Below are positions 6,184-23,703 of a stretch of DNA of 64,000 nt, one piece after another. A model generated the notes under the pieces. That model had not been told where the DNA came from, ran no database searches, and was given only the letters and a program-made list of their open reading frames with translations. The position numbers were made by a program, and so were the translations under genes. Source of the stretch: Pseudoxanthomonas broegbernensis (lineage in GTDB: Bacteria; Pseudomonadota; Gammaproteobacteria; Xanthomonadales; Xanthomonadaceae); NCBI RefSeq assembly GCF_014202435.1, contig NZ_JACHGU010000001.1:310001-374000 (forward strand), written 5' to 3'. Every line of letters begins with the position of its first letter. Position 1 is the stretch's first letter.

Positions 6184-7941
6184 ATGCGTACCCATTTCTG
6201 CGGCCTGATCGACGAGTCGTCGATCGGCCAGACCGTCACCCTCGCCGGCTGGACCGACGTGGCCCGCAACCTGGGCGGGGTGTGCTTCATCGACCTGCGC
6301 GACCACGAGGGCATCGTCCAGGTCACCGTCGAGCCCTCCAACGCCGAGGTCTTCGCGGTGGCCGCCTCGCTGGGCTACGAGGACGTGCTCCAGGTCGAGG
6401 GCACGGTCCGCGCGCGCGAGGCGGTCAACGAGAAGATCCGCAGCGGGCGGGTGGAGGTGATCGCCACCCGCATCACCGTGCTCAACAAGGCCGCGCCGCT
6501 GCCGTTCCACGCGCACGAGAACCCGGGCGAGGAAACCCGCCTGAAGTACCGCTACCTGGACCTGCGCCGCCCGGAGATGCAGCGCATGCAGCGCACCCGC
6601 ATCAAGCTGGTGCAGGCGCTGCGCCGGCACCTGGACGCGGCCGGCTTCCAGGACATCGAGACCCCGATCCTGACCAAGGCCACGCCCGAGGGCGCGCGCG
6701 ACTTCCTGGTGCCCGCGCGCATGCACCCCGGCGAGTTCTACGCGCTGCCGCAGAGCCCGCAGTTGTTCAAGCAGATCCTGATGGTGGCCGGCTTCGACCG
6801 CTACTACCAGATCGCGCGCTGCTTCCGCGACGAGGCCCTGCGCGCCGACCGCCAGCTCGAGTTCACCCAGTTGGACATGGAGTTCGCCTTCGTGCGCGAG
6901 CGCGACGTGCAGGACTTCGTCGAGGCGATGATCCGCGCGGTGTTCGCGGAAGTGGTCGGCGCCGACCTGGGCGCGCCGTTCCCGCGCATGACCTGGGCCG
7001 AGGCCATGCGCCGCTACGGTTCGGACAAGCCCGACCTGCGCATCGGCCTGGAGCTGGTGGACGTGGCCGAGCGGGTCAAGGACAGCGGCTTCGCCGTGTT
7101 CTCCGGCGCGGCCAACGATCCGGACGGCCGCGTGGCCGCGCTGCGCATCCCCGGCGGCGCGGCGCTGTCGCGCAAGCAGATCGACGAGTACGCCGCGCAC
7201 GCGGCCAAGTTCGGCGCCAAGGGCCTGGCCTACATCAAGATCGACGCGGCCGGAAGCGTCAGTTCGCCGATCGCCAAGTTCTTCGACGAGGCCGCGTTCG
7301 CCGCGCTGATCGCCGACGTGGGCGCGGGCAACGGCGACATCGTGTTCTTCGGCGCCGGCGCCTACGGCAGGGTCTGCGACTTCATGGGCGCGCTGCGGCT
7401 GAAGGCCGGCCGCGACTTCGGCCTGGTCGCCGAGGGCTGGAAGCCGCTGTGGGTCACCGACTTCCCCATGTTCGAATGGGACGAGGAGGCGCAGCGCTAC
7501 GTGGCCCTGCATCATCCGTTCACCGCCCCGGCGGTGAACGACATCGCCGAGCTGCGCGCCCATGCCAGGACCGCGGTGTCGCGCGGCTACGACATGGTGC
7601 TCAACGGCAACGAGATCGGCGGCGGCTCGATCCGCATCCATCGCCCGGAGATGCAGAGCGCGGTGTTCGAGCTGCTGGGCATCGGCGCGGAGGAGGCGCA
7701 GGCCAAGTTCGGCTTCCTGCTCGACGCGCTCAAGTACGGCGCCCCGCCGCACGGCGGCATCGCCTTCGGCATCGACCGCATCGCCGCGCTGATGGCCGGC
7801 ACCGAGTCGATCCGCGACGTGATCGCGTTCCCCAAGACCACCACCGCGCAGTGCCTGATGACCGGCGCGCCCTCGCCGATTCCCGAAGCGCAACTGGCCG
7901 AGGTGCACGTGCGCGTACGGGCGGACGGAGCGTCCGAATGA
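6184..7941 (+). CDS. aspS: Aspartyl-tRNA synthetase
   Basis: Cytoplasmic class II synthetase (EC 6.1.1.12) of 585 aa, the bacterial type. An N-terminal OB-fold anticodon-binding domain begins [11 protein letters not shown]. The catalytic core contains [15 protein letters not shown], the motif 2 segment [19 protein letters not shown] and motif 3 [13 protein letters not shown], and a GAD insertion domain lies between motifs 2 and 3. The start is chosen at the conserved MRT; longer in-frame extension upstream is not conserved. Residue 30 is Leu, as in discriminating enzymes, but residue 81 is Val, so use on tRNA-Asn cannot be judged. The stop overlaps the next gene by ATGA. Confidence 0.97.
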
Positions 7942-18713: not shown

Positions 18714-19450
18714 GCGACTGGCTGTTCGACCTGGGCAACTCGCGCTTCAAGGCCGCGCCGTGGCGGCCCGACGGCGGCATCGGCCAGATCCTGGCCTGGC
18801 CGCACGGTGCCGACGCGCTGGCCGCCGGCGACGCCAGCCAGGGACCGCTGCCGCGCGGCCGCCGCGCCTGGGTGGCCAGCGTCGCCGCACCGGCGCTGAC
18901 CCTGCAACTGCTGACCCTGCTGCGCGAACGCTTCGAACAGGTACGCATGGCCGAGAGCCGGGCCGAGTGCGCCGGCGTGCGCGTGGCCTACGCGCAGCCG
19001 CAGCGGCTGGGCGTGGACCGCTTCCTGGCCTTGCTCGGCGCGCGCGCGGTAGGCGGCGACGTCCTGGTGGCGGGGGTGGGCACGGCGCTGACCATCGACC
19101 TGCTCGGCGCCGACGGCACCCACCATGGCGGGCGCATCGCCGCCTCGCCGACGCTGATGCGCCAGGCGCTGCACCAGCGCGCGGCGCAACTGCCGGCGAG
19201 CGGTGGCGGCTATCGCGAGTTCGCCGGCGACACCGAGGACGCCCTGGCCTCCGGATGCGACGGCGCGGCGGTGGCGCTGATCGAGCGTTCCCTGCGCGAG
19301 GGCCAGGCGCGGCTGGGGCGCGCGCCCGCGCTGCTGCTGCACGGCGGCGGCGCGCCGGCGTTGCAGCCGCTGTTGCCGCAGGCACGCGCGCATCCGGCGC
19401 TGGTGCTGGAAGGATTGGCGCTGTGGGCGAGCGTGGACCCGGATGCCTAG
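18710..19450 (+). CDS. coaX: Type III pantothenate kinase
   Basis: Cytoplasmic kinase (EC 2.7.1.33) of 246 aa for the first step of CoA synthesis. It belongs to the ASKHA superfamily: N-terminal phosphate loop WLFDLGNSRFK, pantothenate-site segment RLGVDRFLALLGA, GVGTALTIDLL, and C-terminal LLLHGGGAPAL. Type III kinases need a monovalent cation and resist CoA feedback. The start overlaps the birA stop; birA-coaX is a widespread pair. Confidence 0.94.
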   Translation: MSDWLFDLGNSRFKAAPWRPDGGIGQILAWPHGADALAAGDASQGPLPRGRRAWVASVAAPALTLQLLTLLRERFEQVRMAESRAECAGVRVAYAQPQRLGVDRFLALLGARAVGGDVLVAGVGTALTIDLLGADGTHHGGRIAASPTLMRQALHQRAAQLPASGGGYREFAGDTEDALASGCDGAAVALIERSLREGQARLGRAPALLLHGGGAPALQPLLPQARAHPALVLEGLALWASVDPDA

Positions 19451-19478
19451 AATCGATCTTCCACAACGGCCTTCCGCC

Positions 19479-20165
19479 ATGCTCGCACGTGCCCTGATCG
19501 TCGTCCTGCTGGCCCTGAACCTGGGCGTGGCCGCCTGGTGGCTGCTGCGTCCTTCGCCGCCGCCGTACCGTGTGCCGGCCTCGGACGCGGGCGGCCTGGA
19601 ACTGCGCCTGGTCCCGCCGCCGGCCGGCGGCGCGCCGGCCGCGCCGCTCGCCGCGTCCGGACCTTCCCGGGCGCGGCAGTGCCTGCGCGCCGGCCCCTTC
19701 GCCGAGCTGGTCGCCGCGCAGGCGGCGCAGGCCGCGCTCGCCGGCCTGGCGGATGGAATGGTGCTGGAGGAAGTGCCGGGCGAGGCGGCCGGCTATCGCG
19801 TGCTGCTGCCGCCGGCGGACGACCTGGCCGAGGCGCAGGCGCTGGCCGGACGGATCGCCGCCGCCGGCGTCCAGGACTACCTCATCGTCCGCCAGGGCGA
19901 GGAGACCCATGCGATCGCGCTGGGCAGCTATCGCAGCCGGGAGGCCGCGCAGCGCCGCCTGCAGGCGCTGCGCGATGCCGGCTTCCCGGCCGTCCTGCGC
20001 GCGCAGGGCCGGGCGGCGTCATCGCAATGGTGGCTGGAACTGGAAGTGGACAGCGTGGATGCCGATGCCGCGCGCGCGCGACTGGAAGTGGAAGGCACGG
20101 AAACGGCCGCATGCCTGTTGCCGCGCGACGCGGCCACGTCCACCGCCGTGCAGGCACTGCGCTAG
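19479..20165 (+). CDS. SPOR-domain membrane protein
   Basis: A 228 aa protein with an N-terminal membrane anchor (MLARALIVVLLALNLGVAAWWLL) and a periplasmic part with a SPOR-like fold at about 105-170 (GYRVLLPP, AIALGSYRSREAAQRRLQALRDAGFPAVL). SPOR domains bind glycan strands lacking stem peptides at division sites. An in-frame ATG at 19443 overlaps the coaX stop, but starting at 19479 puts the membrane helix at the N-terminus. TAGAAT at 19448 may be its own -10. coaX followed by a SPOR gene is common in this family. Confidence 0.82.
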   Translation: MLARALIVVLLALNLGVAAWWLLRPSPPPYRVPASDAGGLELRLVPPPAGGAPAAPLAASGPSRARQCLRAGPFAELVAAQAAQAALAGLADGMVLEEVPGEAAGYRVLLPPADDLAEAQALAGRIAAAGVQDYLIVRQGEETHAIALGSYRSREAAQRRLQALRDAGFPAVLRAQGRAASSQWWLELEVDSVDADAARARLEVEGTETAACLLPRDAATSTAVQALR

Positions 20166-20179: not shown

Positions 20180-20255
20180 GCCGCTTTAGCTCAGTTGGTA
20201 GAGCAACTGTCTTGTAAACAGTAGGTCGTCCGTTCGATTCGGACAAGCGGCACCA
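20180..20255 (+). tRNA. tRNA-Thr (anticodon TGT), CCA encoded
   Basis: A complete cloverleaf. Acceptor arms GCCGCTT and AAGCGGC, D-arm GCTC/GAGC, anticodon stem ACTGT/ACAGT around loop CTTGTAA (anticodon TGT, reads ACA), T-arm GTCCG/CGGAC with loop TTCGATT, discriminator A and genomic CCA. It reads threonine ACA codons. The lower-GC restriction-modification cassette begins 182 bases downstream. Confidence 0.98.
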
Positions 20256-20437
20256 GTTCCCTTGCAGTCGGCGGATTTCCGCGCTGCGCTTCATGGGCCT
20301 CGGTCGGAGCCTGGCCGCGCTGCTCCCGATACTTGACCGGAAATCCGAGCAGCGGCACATACCCGGCGCGGTCCGGCATGGTCATATGCGGTTTCCGGCA
20401 TCCGAGACAATTCCGCAGGGGTTCTAGATCCTTAGTG

Positions 20438-21412
20438 CTATTGCTTTCGGTATTCGTCTAAATCCACAGATTCGCCAGAGATGATGCGTTTATAGATATC
20501 CTTCATCACCTTCGGTGTCGTGTCCTTGTCGATGAACCGGAACGCTGAGGTTCCCACGTACTCGCGCAGGATCTCGAACGCCATCCACCGACGCCCTTGC
20601 GCCTCTGCCACTTGGCCGGTGGTGTTGGAACCGCCGAAGATGTCCACGACGAGGTCGTCGGGGTCCGTCAGCATCCGAATGAAGAACTCCGGCAGTTTCG
20701 CGGGGAAGCGTGCGGGGTGCCCCTTGAGGTCGACGGCCTTGCAGCCGGACAGGTACTGCCCATTGGACTCGGAGTTCGGAATCTGTAAGAGGTTGGGCGG
20801 GATCGCGCCGCCATTGTCCTTCGCGAAGCCCTTGCCGATATCGTGCCCCGAAGGACGGACCTTGGGAGTGTAGAACTTGTCTGGGTCCTCGATCAGCTTC
20901 TTCATGCGGTCGCTGTAGGGGGCAAGGACCCTGGTGATGTCCGACTTGGGCCACTCGGTCTTGCTGAACCACCAGACGGTATTGATCGCGTCCTTGACGC
21001 GCATCTTGCGCTTGTTCACCCATTCGATCGGGCTCGGAAGCTTGGACGGATTGAACCAATAGAAGTCTTCCGCGAGGAAGAACCCCAGTTCGTCCACGAT
21101 TCGGATCATCACACGAAAGTTGTAGAGACTCCGGGCCGGCACCCCCTTCATGTAAGCCCCGCCGAAGTCGACGACGAAGCTGCCGTCGTCCTTCAACTTT
21201 TGATGCACCAGCTTCGCGAACCCAAGGAACCAGTCGATGTACTCGTGCTGGTCGAGGTTGCCGTATTCCTTCTGTCGCTGGAGTGCGAAGGGAGGACTGG
21301 TCATTACCAGGTTGACGCTGTTGTCGGGCAACGTGGCCAGGAGCTTGCGAGCGTCGCCTATGTAGGCCGCACCCTTGCAAGTGAAATAGGCCGGGGAGAA
21401 ATCATCGCCCAT
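20438..21412 (-). CDS. PvuII-type DNA (cytosine-N4) methyltransferase
   Basis: A 324 aa protein, close throughout to M.PvuII: TSPPFALQRQKEYGN, VVDFGGAYMKGVPARSLYNF, KLPSPIEWVNKRKMR, PYSDRMKKLIEDP, KVRPSGHDIGKGFAKDNGGAIP, HPARFPAKLPEFFIRML. Catalytic motif IV (TSPPF, 38-42) precedes the AdoMet motif I (DIFGGSN, about 257-263), the beta-class order. By homology it should modify the inner cytosine of CAGCTG as N4-methylcytosine and protect the host from the adjacent endonuclease. It is divergent from the controller gene across a 58-base gap holding C-boxes. Base composition is clearly lower in GC than the flanks. Target specificity is inferred. Confidence 0.92.
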   Translation of the reverse strand: MGDDFSPAYFTCKGAAYIGDARKLLATLPDNSVNLVMTSPPFALQRQKEYGNLDQHEYIDWFLGFAKLVHQKLKDDGSFVVDFGGAYMKGVPARSLYNFRVMIRIVDELGFFLAEDFYWFNPSKLPSPIEWVNKRKMRVKDAINTVWWFSKTEWPKSDITRVLAPYSDRMKKLIEDPDKFYTPKVRPSGHDIGKGFAKDNGGAIPPNLLQIPNSESNGQYLSGCKAVDLKGHPARFPAKLPEFFIRMLTDPDDLVVDIFGGSNTTGQVAEAQGRRWMAFEILREYVGTSAFRFIDKDTTPKVMKDIYKRIISGESVDLDEYRKQ

Positions 21413-21421
21413 GCCGCATGC

Positions 21422-21447
21422 TACTCATCGTCTGTAGATTCATTGTC
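21422..21447 (+). promoter_or_regulatory. C-boxes of the restriction-modification controller
   Basis: TACTCATCGTC, spacer TGTA, then GATTCATTGTC. Two related half-operators of 11 bases are arranged like PvuII-family C-boxes (ACT-AT-GTC half-sites around a central GT). They lie between the divergent methyltransferase and controller genes. The right box ends 23 bases before the controller ATG and would overlap its -35. No Shine-Dalgarno is seen before that ATG, which is consistent with a leaderless transcript. Confidence 0.75.
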
Positions 21448-21470
21448 ATCATGCTTCAATTATCCCTTGC

Positions 21471-21707
21471 ATGAAGAAGAAGTTAAAGCTCTCTGAGGCA
21501 CGGCAGCGGTTCGCCGTGCACCTAAGGGTCGCGCGGGGGAGGCTCGGATTATCGCAAGAGGCGCTAGCCGATGCGGCGGGCCTGCATCGGACCTACGTGG
21601 GTTCGGTGGAGCGGGGTGAGAGGAACATCTCCATAGACAACATCGAGCGGCTAGCAATCGCTCTGGGCGTTTCTCCCGCGTCACTGCTGGAGGAACCGAA
21701 GGAATGA
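21471..21707 (+). CDS. Restriction-modification controller protein (C protein), XRE family
   Basis: A 78 aa helix-turn-helix protein. The HTH core is [43 protein letters not shown], the C.PvuII-type pattern ([23 protein letters not shown]). Controllers of this family form dimers, bind the C-boxes, activate their own and the endonuclease gene, and repress at high dose. This delays endonuclease until DNA is methylated. Its stop overlaps the endonuclease start (ATGA), the usual C-R arrangement. Confidence 0.92.
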
Positions 21708-22267
21708 CACTGAAGCCGCACGCCGACTACGGACGCCTGCAAACCGTCTGGCCATCCGTCGAGGAGTATCAGAGGCTGGCGACCGAGCATGGCATTGACG
21801 ATGTTTTCCAGGACAACGGGGGCAAGCTGCTGCAGGTGCTACTTCTTCTTGGCCTGCGCATCATCCCTGGTCGCGAGGGCAATGACGCTATTGACGCAGA
21901 CGGCCGCGAGTACGAGCTCAAATCGGTGAACATCGAATTGACCAAGGGCTTCTCGACTCACCACCACATGAACCCCGCCATCATCGCCAAGTACCGGCAG
22001 GTGCCTTGGGTCTTCGCCATCTACCGGCATATCGCGCTCCAGGCCGTGTATCTCCTGGAGTCCGCAGCCTTGGAGTTCTATTTTCTGAAGTGGGAGCAAA
22101 AGTGGCACGCGGATGGCGGCAAGGACATCAACAATCCAAAGATCCCAGTCAAGTACGTCATGGAACATGGGCGCCTAATCTATGGTCAGGCTCCTGAGCT
22201 ATCGGCCCGGCGCCGCATACAACCGACTCCAACAGATGCCGCGGGTTTCGGGCCTGACGAGGCATAG
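21704..22267 (+). CDS. PvuII-like type II restriction endonuclease
   Basis: A 187 aa protein very close to R.PvuII (157 aa). Shared stretches include [64 protein letters not shown] and [17 protein letters not shown]. Catalytic residues equivalent to PvuII Asp58, Glu68 and Lys70 are Asp61, Glu71 and Lys73. The His cluster that reads the central GC is at 86-88. Predicted target CAG^CTG with blunt cleavage, by homology. It carries a 27-residue C-terminal extension absent from PvuII. The start overlaps the controller gene, with AAGGA just upstream. Confidence 0.93.
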
Positions 22268-22286: not shown

Positions 22287-23573
22287 TCACGCCGCCCCCG
22301 TCGACGGCCGCGCACCCCACAGCGCGTAGAACAGCACGTACAGCTCGCAGGCCGCGGTCAGCAGGAACGACATCTGCAGGCCGTAGCGGTCGGCCAGCCA
22401 GCCCTGCACCACCACCAGGGCGCCGCCGGCGATGGCCATCACCAGCAGGCCGGCGCCTTCCTCGGTGAGGGGGCCCAGCCCGCGGATGCCCAGTGTGAAG
22501 ATGGTCGGGAACATGATCGAGTGGAACAGGCCCACCGCGATCAGCGACCACATCGCCAGCTTGCCGCTGGCCAGCACGGTCGCGACCATCGCCACGAACG
22601 CGCCCACCGCGAACAGGGCCAGCACCTTCTCCGCCGCGATCGTGCGCATCAGGACGCTGCCGGCGAAGCGGCCGACCATCATCCCGCCCCACAGCAGGAA
22701 CAGGTAGTGCGAGGCCTGCGCATGGGTGAGATCGCCGATGTGCGGCTGGGAGACGAAGTTGATGAACAGGTTGGACACGCCGATCTCGGCGATGAGGTAG
22801 ATGAAGATGGCGGGGATGCCCAGCACCAGGTTGCGGTGCGACCACAGCGAGTGGCGCGCGCGTTCCTCGCGGCTGGCGCGGCGGGTGGCCTGGCCCAGCG
22901 CGGGCAGGCGGAAGCGGGCGATCACGATGGCCAGCAGCACCAGCACCGCGGCCACGATCAGGTAGGGCAGTTGCACCGACTGCGCATCGGCCAGGCGCTC
23001 GGCCGGGGACAGCACCGCGTCGGCGGCGGCGGTGCCGGAGGCCGAGCGGCCGAGGATGAGGTAGCCGCCGAACAACGGCGCCAGAGTGGTGCCGAACGAG
23101 TTGAACGCCTGCACCAGGTTCAGCCGCGAGGATGCCGTCTCCGGCGAGCCGATCACCGCCACGTAGGGATTGGCGGCCACCTGCAGCAGGGTGATGCCGC
23201 TGGCGATGACGAACAGCGAGACCAGGGTGACGGTGTAGGAGGGCAGCCGCGCGGCCGGGATCATGCCCAGCGCGCCCAGCGCCATCACGGCCAGGCCGAT
23301 CACCAGCGCGCGCTGGTAGCCGACCCGCTCGATCAGCCGGGCCGAGGGCAGGGAAGCGACGAAGTAGGCGATGAACCACACCGACTCGATCAGCGTGGCC
23401 TGCGTGTAGGTCAGGTCGAACACGCTGCGCAGGTGCGGCAGCAGGGTGTTGTTGATGACCGTGATGAAGCCCCACATGAAGAACAGCGAGGCCAGCAGCG
23501 ACAGCGCCGCGCGATGGGAAACGCCGCGCGCGCGCGCGGCAGCCGGAGCCAGGGGCTCCACCGGTCCTGTCAT
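22287..23573 (-). CDS. FucP/GluP-like sugar MFS transporter
   Basis: Inner-membrane permease of 428 aa with 12 predicted helices. FHS-family (fucose/glucose/galactose:H+ symporter) features are [56 protein letters not shown] and the second-half [33 protein letters not shown]. The start MTGPVEP is chosen because the upstream extension is Arg/Cys-rich and unlike the family. The substrate may be fucose, glucose, galactose or a disaccharide-derived sugar. No catabolic genes are adjacent. Confidence 0.88.
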
Positions 23574-23703
23574 CGGGGCGTTCCCTCCGCAGCGGTCGAT
23601 ACGAGATGCCGGGCGCGCGTGCGTACCCGTCCATCCCACCGGGCCGCAGCATAGGCGGCGGGCGTCCCGCGCGACCAATGACGAGACAGGCGCCTCGCAT
23701 ATC

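Follow-up and report, generated by a model that had tools for sequence, protein, structure and literature searches.

A predicted PvuII-type restriction-modification cassette stands beside a tRNA-Thr gene in the window, the whole 64-kb stretch of DNA analysed here, and it raises the question of what such a system does over time to its own presumed target word, CAGCTG, in the genome that harbours it.

The cassette and its neighbourhood

A complete PvuII-type M-C-R cassette had been proposed at positions 20438-22267 by a sequence-only reading, and the open reading frames together with profile and structure matches bore this out (Table 1). The endonuclease R scored 223 bits against PF09225 (Endonuc-PvuII; cut-off, 25) in the profile search and matched the solved PvuII structure 1eyu across residues 6-160 (2.5e-78), and the methyltransferase M matched the M.PvuII structure 1boo across residues 6-319 (2e-176). 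M is divergent from C and R with the C-box operator in between, which is the PvuII arrangement, and the end of C overlaps the start of R by 4 bases according to the ORF coordinates. The proposed gene order, C-boxes and controller were thus found in the ORF layout and in a comparison of the operator, GCTACTCATCGTCTGTAGATTCATTGTCATCAT, with that of the Proteus locus L016, from which it differs at three positions. Residues D61, E71 and K73 of R, placed by the offset of the 1eyu alignment, are the equivalents of Asp58, Glu68 and Lys70 of PvuII, and the His-cluster motif FSTHHHMNP is intact in the same alignment, as had been claimed; Asp58, Glu68 and Lys70 are catalytic in the PvuII endonuclease. 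The 27-residue tail that extends R beyond PvuII is real (residues 161-187). It is no peculiarity of the window, because tails of like kind occur in relatives from Stenotrophomonas, Stutzerimonas and Achromobacter, with longer variants in others. Judged from these matches, the cassette is an intact PvuII-type restriction-modification system that is probably active, and in itself it is an ordinary, additional system of the PvuII kind.

Table 1. Features of the cassette locus, in window coordinates
Feature	Position	Strand	Remarks
SPOR-domain gene, beyond tRNA-Thr	19443-20165		
tRNA-Thr(TGT), anchor on the M side	20180..20255	+	
Spacer, tRNA-Thr to M	20256..20437	.	182 bp
M, predicted PvuII-type N4-cytosine methyltransferase	20438-21412	-	324 aa; PF01555 and M.PvuII match
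C-box operator region separating M from C	21420..21452	+	compared by eye with loci L003, L004 and L016
C, controller (HTH) protein	21471-21707	+	78 aa; HTH_3 match
R, PvuII-type endonuclease with 27-residue C-terminal tail	21704-22267	+	187 aa; PF09225
MFS transporter, right-hand neighbour	22287..23678	-	82% identical to counterpart in congener G001

Two variants of the gene set were seen among related loci. In 18 of them, mostly from Bacteroidota, a single ORF of 235-304 aa matches both C and R (L026, L032, L039, L048, L050, L051, L054, L056, L059, L061-L064, L067, L070, L071, L074 and L077); such fusions are mentioned in PMC12707154. At L044, L052 and L067 an unrelated methyltransferase of 574-596 aa, which is not of the M.PvuII type, adjoins the PvuII-like R. 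PvuII-like endonucleases with 43-48% identity are also encoded in five phage records of 146-150 kb (H12-H16), and the hosts named for four of these are Ruegeria, Phaeobacter and Rhodobacter.

The lower GC content and probable acquisition suggested by the sequence-only reading also held up. GC amounts to 58.2% in M, 60.8% in C and 58.3% in R, against 72.7 and 72.0% in the two flanks and 72% in the host genome. Among 100 genomes, the host included, PF09225 was confined to the host and a single genome from another family of the order, and the sister-genome comparison that had been suggested as a check gave a match in none of 16 congeners (profile search; three of the 16 are <90% complete). Congener G001 carries the empty site: the SPOR gene, tRNA-Thr and the MFS gene are adjacent without the cassette, and 45 bp separate the MFS stop codon from the tRNA. 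These comparisons support an acquisition of the cassette by the host. A recent acquisition was rejected, because almost every CAGCTG of the sampled host DNA is lost (see below).

The cassette starts 182 bases after the end of tRNA-Thr, as stated before. No second full copy of the spacer exists in the genome, where a single 40-bp partial match was found, and no unusual fold was detected in it. A degraded tRNA end like that of a Stenotrophomonas relative was sought in the spacer but found no support, since the best match (14/28) was equalled in 1197 of 2000 shuffles; a second tRNA-end probe (16/28, equalled in 151 of 2000 shuffles) gave no significant remnant either. Plus-strand repeats of tRNA-Thr of at least 12 bases were absent from the 64-kb window. 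ARAGORN also called a tRNA-Arg(ccg) at 19582-19658 (-), entirely within the SPOR-domain gene and probably false. The DNA that follows tRNA-Thr differs across the genus; G006 has an ORF there that carries an Arm-DNA-bind_3 domain, which integrases also have.

A survey of 82 loci, comprising 80 with R (kept of 103 found), L002 from among the relatives and the window, placed the window cassette in a wider pattern. Eligible were the 66 loci with M in which the sequence past M extends for 500 bp or more or contains a tRNA; L007 was counted with 300 bp only, owing to its tRNA. At 7 of the 66, the window included, a tRNA 3' end lies no more than 500 bp from the M end and points towards it (Thr at three, among them the window; Ser at two; Phe; Pro), compared to a chance expectation of 0.25 of 66 that assumes 60 tRNAs per 4 Mb, with some of the seven being related cassettes. 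On the R side, no full tRNA was found within 500 bp in the surveyed loci, and a tRNA-Leu 3' half at one, L009. In L009 a 51-bp, 98% direct repeat resembling the 3' half of tRNA-Leu (1060-1110 and 6812-6862) flanks 5.8 kb that contain the cassette.

Two relatives sit in insertions at tRNA-Thr. In the Achromobacter locus L012 (4391-7207), the anticodon loop of a tRNA-Thr(CGT) is interrupted by a 2.7-kb insert holding a complete additional tRNA-Thr and M-C-R, and both junctions read ATTCGTAAT. Among the matches listed, with their contig assignment presumed, no Phage_integrase match lies inside this insert; its right end resembles parts of the Stenotrophomonas island integrase region at 72-77%. 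Besides M-C-R, the island of Stenotrophomonas sp. BIGb0135 (~8 kb) carries a ParA-like gene and an integrase; the latter has an Arm-DNA-bind_3 domain, and its Phage_integrase score of 24.5 bits is under the cut-off of 27.1. One end of the island is a tRNA-Thr(TGT) half that starts at the anticodon loop and adjoins the integrase, and by eye the other flank of the cassette is a degraded tRNA-Thr 3' end. PvuII relatives in Salmonella reportedly adjoin a P4-like integrase (Naderer 2002). As relatives often lie 3' of tRNAs and the Stenotrophomonas island carries an integrase, the window cassette may be the remnant of a tRNA-integrating island that has lost the rest of its genes. At the window locus the tRNA-to-MFS interval holds recognisably M, C and R only, with no integrase gene and no second att copy, and because these are absent an island origin of this copy is one that we infer.

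Loss of CAGCTG in the host genome

From the 3.47-Mb host genome 464 kb (13%) were sampled, namely the window and 20 further stretches of 20 kb each, and the expected number of CAGCTG was derived from 4- and 5-letter counts. Only 6 CAGCTG were seen versus 227 expected, and none in the window, while observed/expected in 13 congeners was 0.72-0.88. In a comparison of 1570 hexamer rows between the host (464 kb) and congeners (797 kb), one row being an N run of congener pieces and not a real word, CAGCTG was the most depleted real hexamer (6 versus 789), which lends indirect support to the predicted CAGCTG specificity. The most enriched was CAACTG/CAGTTG, with 407 in the host versus 229 in the congeners. 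Other words were also rarer in the host than in the congener set, among them GTGACA (6/71), GGATCC (57/296) and CTCGAG (49/241).

CAGTTG and CAACTG are the products of a C-to-T change at the internal cytosine of CAGCTG on either strand, and this cytosine is presumably the base methylated by M.PvuII. Of the nine classes of single-base neighbours of CAGCTG, this one alone was increased (3.05-fold), and the other eight were at 0.85-1.14. Per 10 kb, the loss of CAGCTG was 9.8 and the gain of CAGTTG/CAACTG 5.9, compared to a gain of 0.1 for TAGCTG/CAGCTA. The commonest frame of the site is the Gln-Leu codon pair. Among 118041 host codons, CAG-CTG occurred 2 times, CAA-CTG 123 times and CAG-TTG 134 times, against 544, 34 and 33 times in 190921 congener codons; the synonymous outer-pair transition CAG-CTA was found once in each set. 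Of 288 CAG-CTG lost in the host, 233 (81%) were regained as internal-cytosine transitions and 52 as other synonymous forms. In xxC-AGC-TG (frame 2), where both cytosines are in third position, C-to-T products numbered 19 for the internal and 1 for the outer cytosine (congeners, 1 and 1). Outside called genes, a set that takes in uncalled genes, CAGTTG stood at 2.55 and TAGCTG at 1.02 of the congener rate (Fisher P 0.011), and the seven other neighbour classes at 0.75-1.24.

None of 21 congener CAGCTG aligned to the host was kept (5 read CAGTTG, 3 CAACTG and 13 other words), compared to 41-92% kept for ten other hexamers. In the reverse direction, 8 of 13 host CAGTTG corresponded to CAGCTG in congeners, and for host CAACTG this was so in 0 of the 8 listed (of 10). 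The D-loop of the tRNA-Thr(TGT) next to the cassette itself reads CAGTTG; in the same tRNA of the congeners, CAGCTG is found in 13 of 16, CAGTTG in 2 and CAGCCG in 1.

Other hosts of PvuII-type systems

Of 16 further hosts reached, 13 were sampled at 48-131 kb each (G102, G106 and G114 were left out); they were picked by closeness, tRNA context and contig size and form a non-random set. As shown in Table 2, ten were depleted in CAGCTG, one showed early signs and two none. The early sign, in Stenotrophomonas, was that CAA preceded CTG in 16 of 97 cases versus 94 of 1356 elsewhere.

Table 2. CAGCTG in 13 other hosts and share of lost CAG-CTG regained as internal-cytosine transitions
Host	Observed/expected	Internal-C regain	Remarks
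Achromobacter	0.00	75%	
Alphaproteobacterial MAG	0.00	58%	
Verticiella	0.02	70%	
Tenebrionibacter	0.02	46%	P 0.38
Thiocystis	0.03	40%	P 0.14
Competibacter	0.06	82%	P 0.10
Lysobacterales MAG	0.12	93%	
Ventosimonas	0.19	25%	reversed, 4 gained vs 19 others
Stutzerimonas	0.21	93%	
P. putida	0.52	97%	
Stenotrophomonas	0.84	64%	
Gellertiella	0.82		without shift
Chromatiales MAG	0.82		without shift

Judged against codon usage, seven of the 11 other affected hosts had an excess of internal-cytosine over other synonymous forms (P < 0.05). The excess was not significant in Competibacter, Thiocystis and Tenebrionibacter, and the opposite was found in Ventosimonas. For pooling, hosts were grouped by observed/expected alone; this replaced an earlier, post hoc grouping with Ventosimonas among the late hosts (91%, four hosts). 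In the five hosts at or above 0.12, Ventosimonas among them, 246 CAG-CTG were lost, with 211 (86%) regained as internal-cytosine forms and 28 as other synonymous forms. In the six hosts at or below 0.06 the corresponding numbers were 330 lost, 207 (63%) and 104, and other synonymous forms were raised, at 258 versus 154. In frame 2, pooled over the 11 hosts, the outer-cytosine form reached 18 versus 8.4 and the internal one 78 versus 16.8.

Two genomes that carry a PvuII-like R with an unrelated methyltransferase, Pseudoalteromonas (0.73) and Vibrio barjaei (0.64), had no CAGTTG/CAACTG shift; both are AT-richer, and their systems may differ in specificity and in length of residence. Genomes with M alone were considered as a case of mutation without restriction and found unusable: 7 of 369 class members were M-like at 1e-60, of which three (the host, G230 and G146) have R too, and the other four, without R in the flanks retrieved, are 42-54% identical and may differ in specificity.

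Mutation or selection

The reading we prefer, with a probability of about 0.68, is that a long-resident PvuII-type cassette has emptied the host of CAGCTG through C-to-T hypermutation of the marked cytosine. The cassette would have reached the 3' side of tRNA-Thr, perhaps aboard a tRNA-integrating island since stripped of its other genes. As predicted from sequence, M would mark CAGCTG as CAG-m4C-TG, C would time expression, and R would cut unmarked CAGCTG. Over a long residence the marked cytosine would turn to T, either by mispairing or by deamination to uracil, far faster than other bases mutate, and almost every CAGCTG would become CAGTTG or CAACTG; a regained CAGCTG would be a target again, and the word would therefore stay rare. 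That mutation and not selection would be the main driver of the erosion we put at about two in three.

The alternative with most to commend it is restriction avoidance, in which methylation is incomplete, R cuts the host, and selection removes CAGCTG; we consider it unlikely. Internal C-to-T changes would lead here too, because they are often synonymous (CAG to CAA, CTG to TTG) in the Gln-Leu frame that is the most frequent for the site. Such avoidance is widely reported and ascribed to selection (PMC4687349). The strongly eroded hosts gained CTC, CTT and CTA as well, Ventosimonas chiefly these, and the regain of only 63% in the six hosts at or below 0.06 is what selection would also give; the late hosts fit selection, or codon usage that slowly re-equilibrated once the first change had occurred. 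These late hosts, Ventosimonas and the two hosts without erosion count against mutation, as do the aligned congener sites, only 8 of 21 of which read CAGTTG or CAACTG, and the increase in the outer-cytosine form seen in frame 2 of the pooled hosts. So does the m4C hypermutation known from Salmonella, which according to PMC9520237 concerns one Type III system and is C-to-A.

Against avoidance, the outer cytosine is spared in the host: products of its transition are hardly increased, whether in frame 2 or in DNA outside called genes. In four of the five hosts with less erosion, little besides the internal cytosine changes, and other synonymous forms are barely up. The uneroded state of Pseudoalteromonas and Vibrio barjaei, with a PvuII-like R and a different methyltransferase, also suggests mutation. 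The erosion pattern of the host hints that the mark itself causes the mutations.

An m5C origin of the loss, with a host C5-methyltransferase that also marks CAGCTG and ordinary deamination, is very improbable: C-to-T is the usual m5C signature and PF00145 matched in 9 of 12 hosts examined, but the profile found nothing in the host (99.99% complete), in Stenotrophomonas (G100) or in P. putida (G110), and AAGCTG, GAGCTG and TAGCTG are at 0.92-1.07 in the host. Scarcely credible, finally, is a recent cassette in a lineage where CAGCTG was already rare for another reason, for which the low cassette GC and its absence from all 16 congeners searched could be cited, but 13 congeners hold CAGCTG near expectation, and 10 of the 13 other hosts sampled are depleted as well.

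In general terms, we lean towards the view that PvuII-type m4C is strongly mutagenic (C-to-T) in many bacteria and that these cassettes are word-specific mutators erasing their own target. m4C is usually held to be a safer mark than m5C, and a near-loss of CAGCTG by C-to-T would change this view for the PvuII-type family. For one known m4C site, the host and its relatives span the range between untouched genomes and almost complete erasure, a natural series in which selection and mutation as causes of site avoidance can be separated. If mutation is the cause, part of so-called restriction-site avoidance is mutation and not selection. Erasure would also end the need for methylation and so release the host from dependence on the cassette: with the CAGCTG sites gone, loss of the cassette should cease to be lethal (addiction).

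The window copy shares gene order, orientation, operator sequence, catalytic residues and methyltransferase type with the PvuII system of Proteus, from which it differs in being chromosomal, in lying beside tRNA-Thr and in the 27-residue C-terminal tail of R. With tRNA integrative islands that carry restriction-modification genes it has the tRNA 3' location and the empty site in common; unlike them it consists of M-C-R only, without integrase or second att half. Methylation-induced hypermutation was reportedly described by Cherry in 2018 and 2021. In this process, mutations pile up on the methylated cytosine of a restriction-modification site (PMC9520237), and the host pattern is similar, with substitutions centred on the presumed methylated cytosine; this concentration is plain in the host and in 7 of the 11 other affected hosts, but not in the remaining 4. 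The Salmonella m4C case is Type III and C-to-A, whereas the present one is Type II and C-to-T with near-loss in several genera. With restriction-site avoidance (Rusinov 2015), the host shares the depletion in sites recognised by Type II systems of long residence, for which selection was invoked; the main text of that study uses neither the word deamination nor the word cytosine (PMC4687349). The literature searched, with its partial coverage, yielded no report that a Type II site carrying m4C erodes by C-to-T. The kind of cassette, site avoidance and hypermutation of methylated cytosine are already known, and the new part is the route of erosion.
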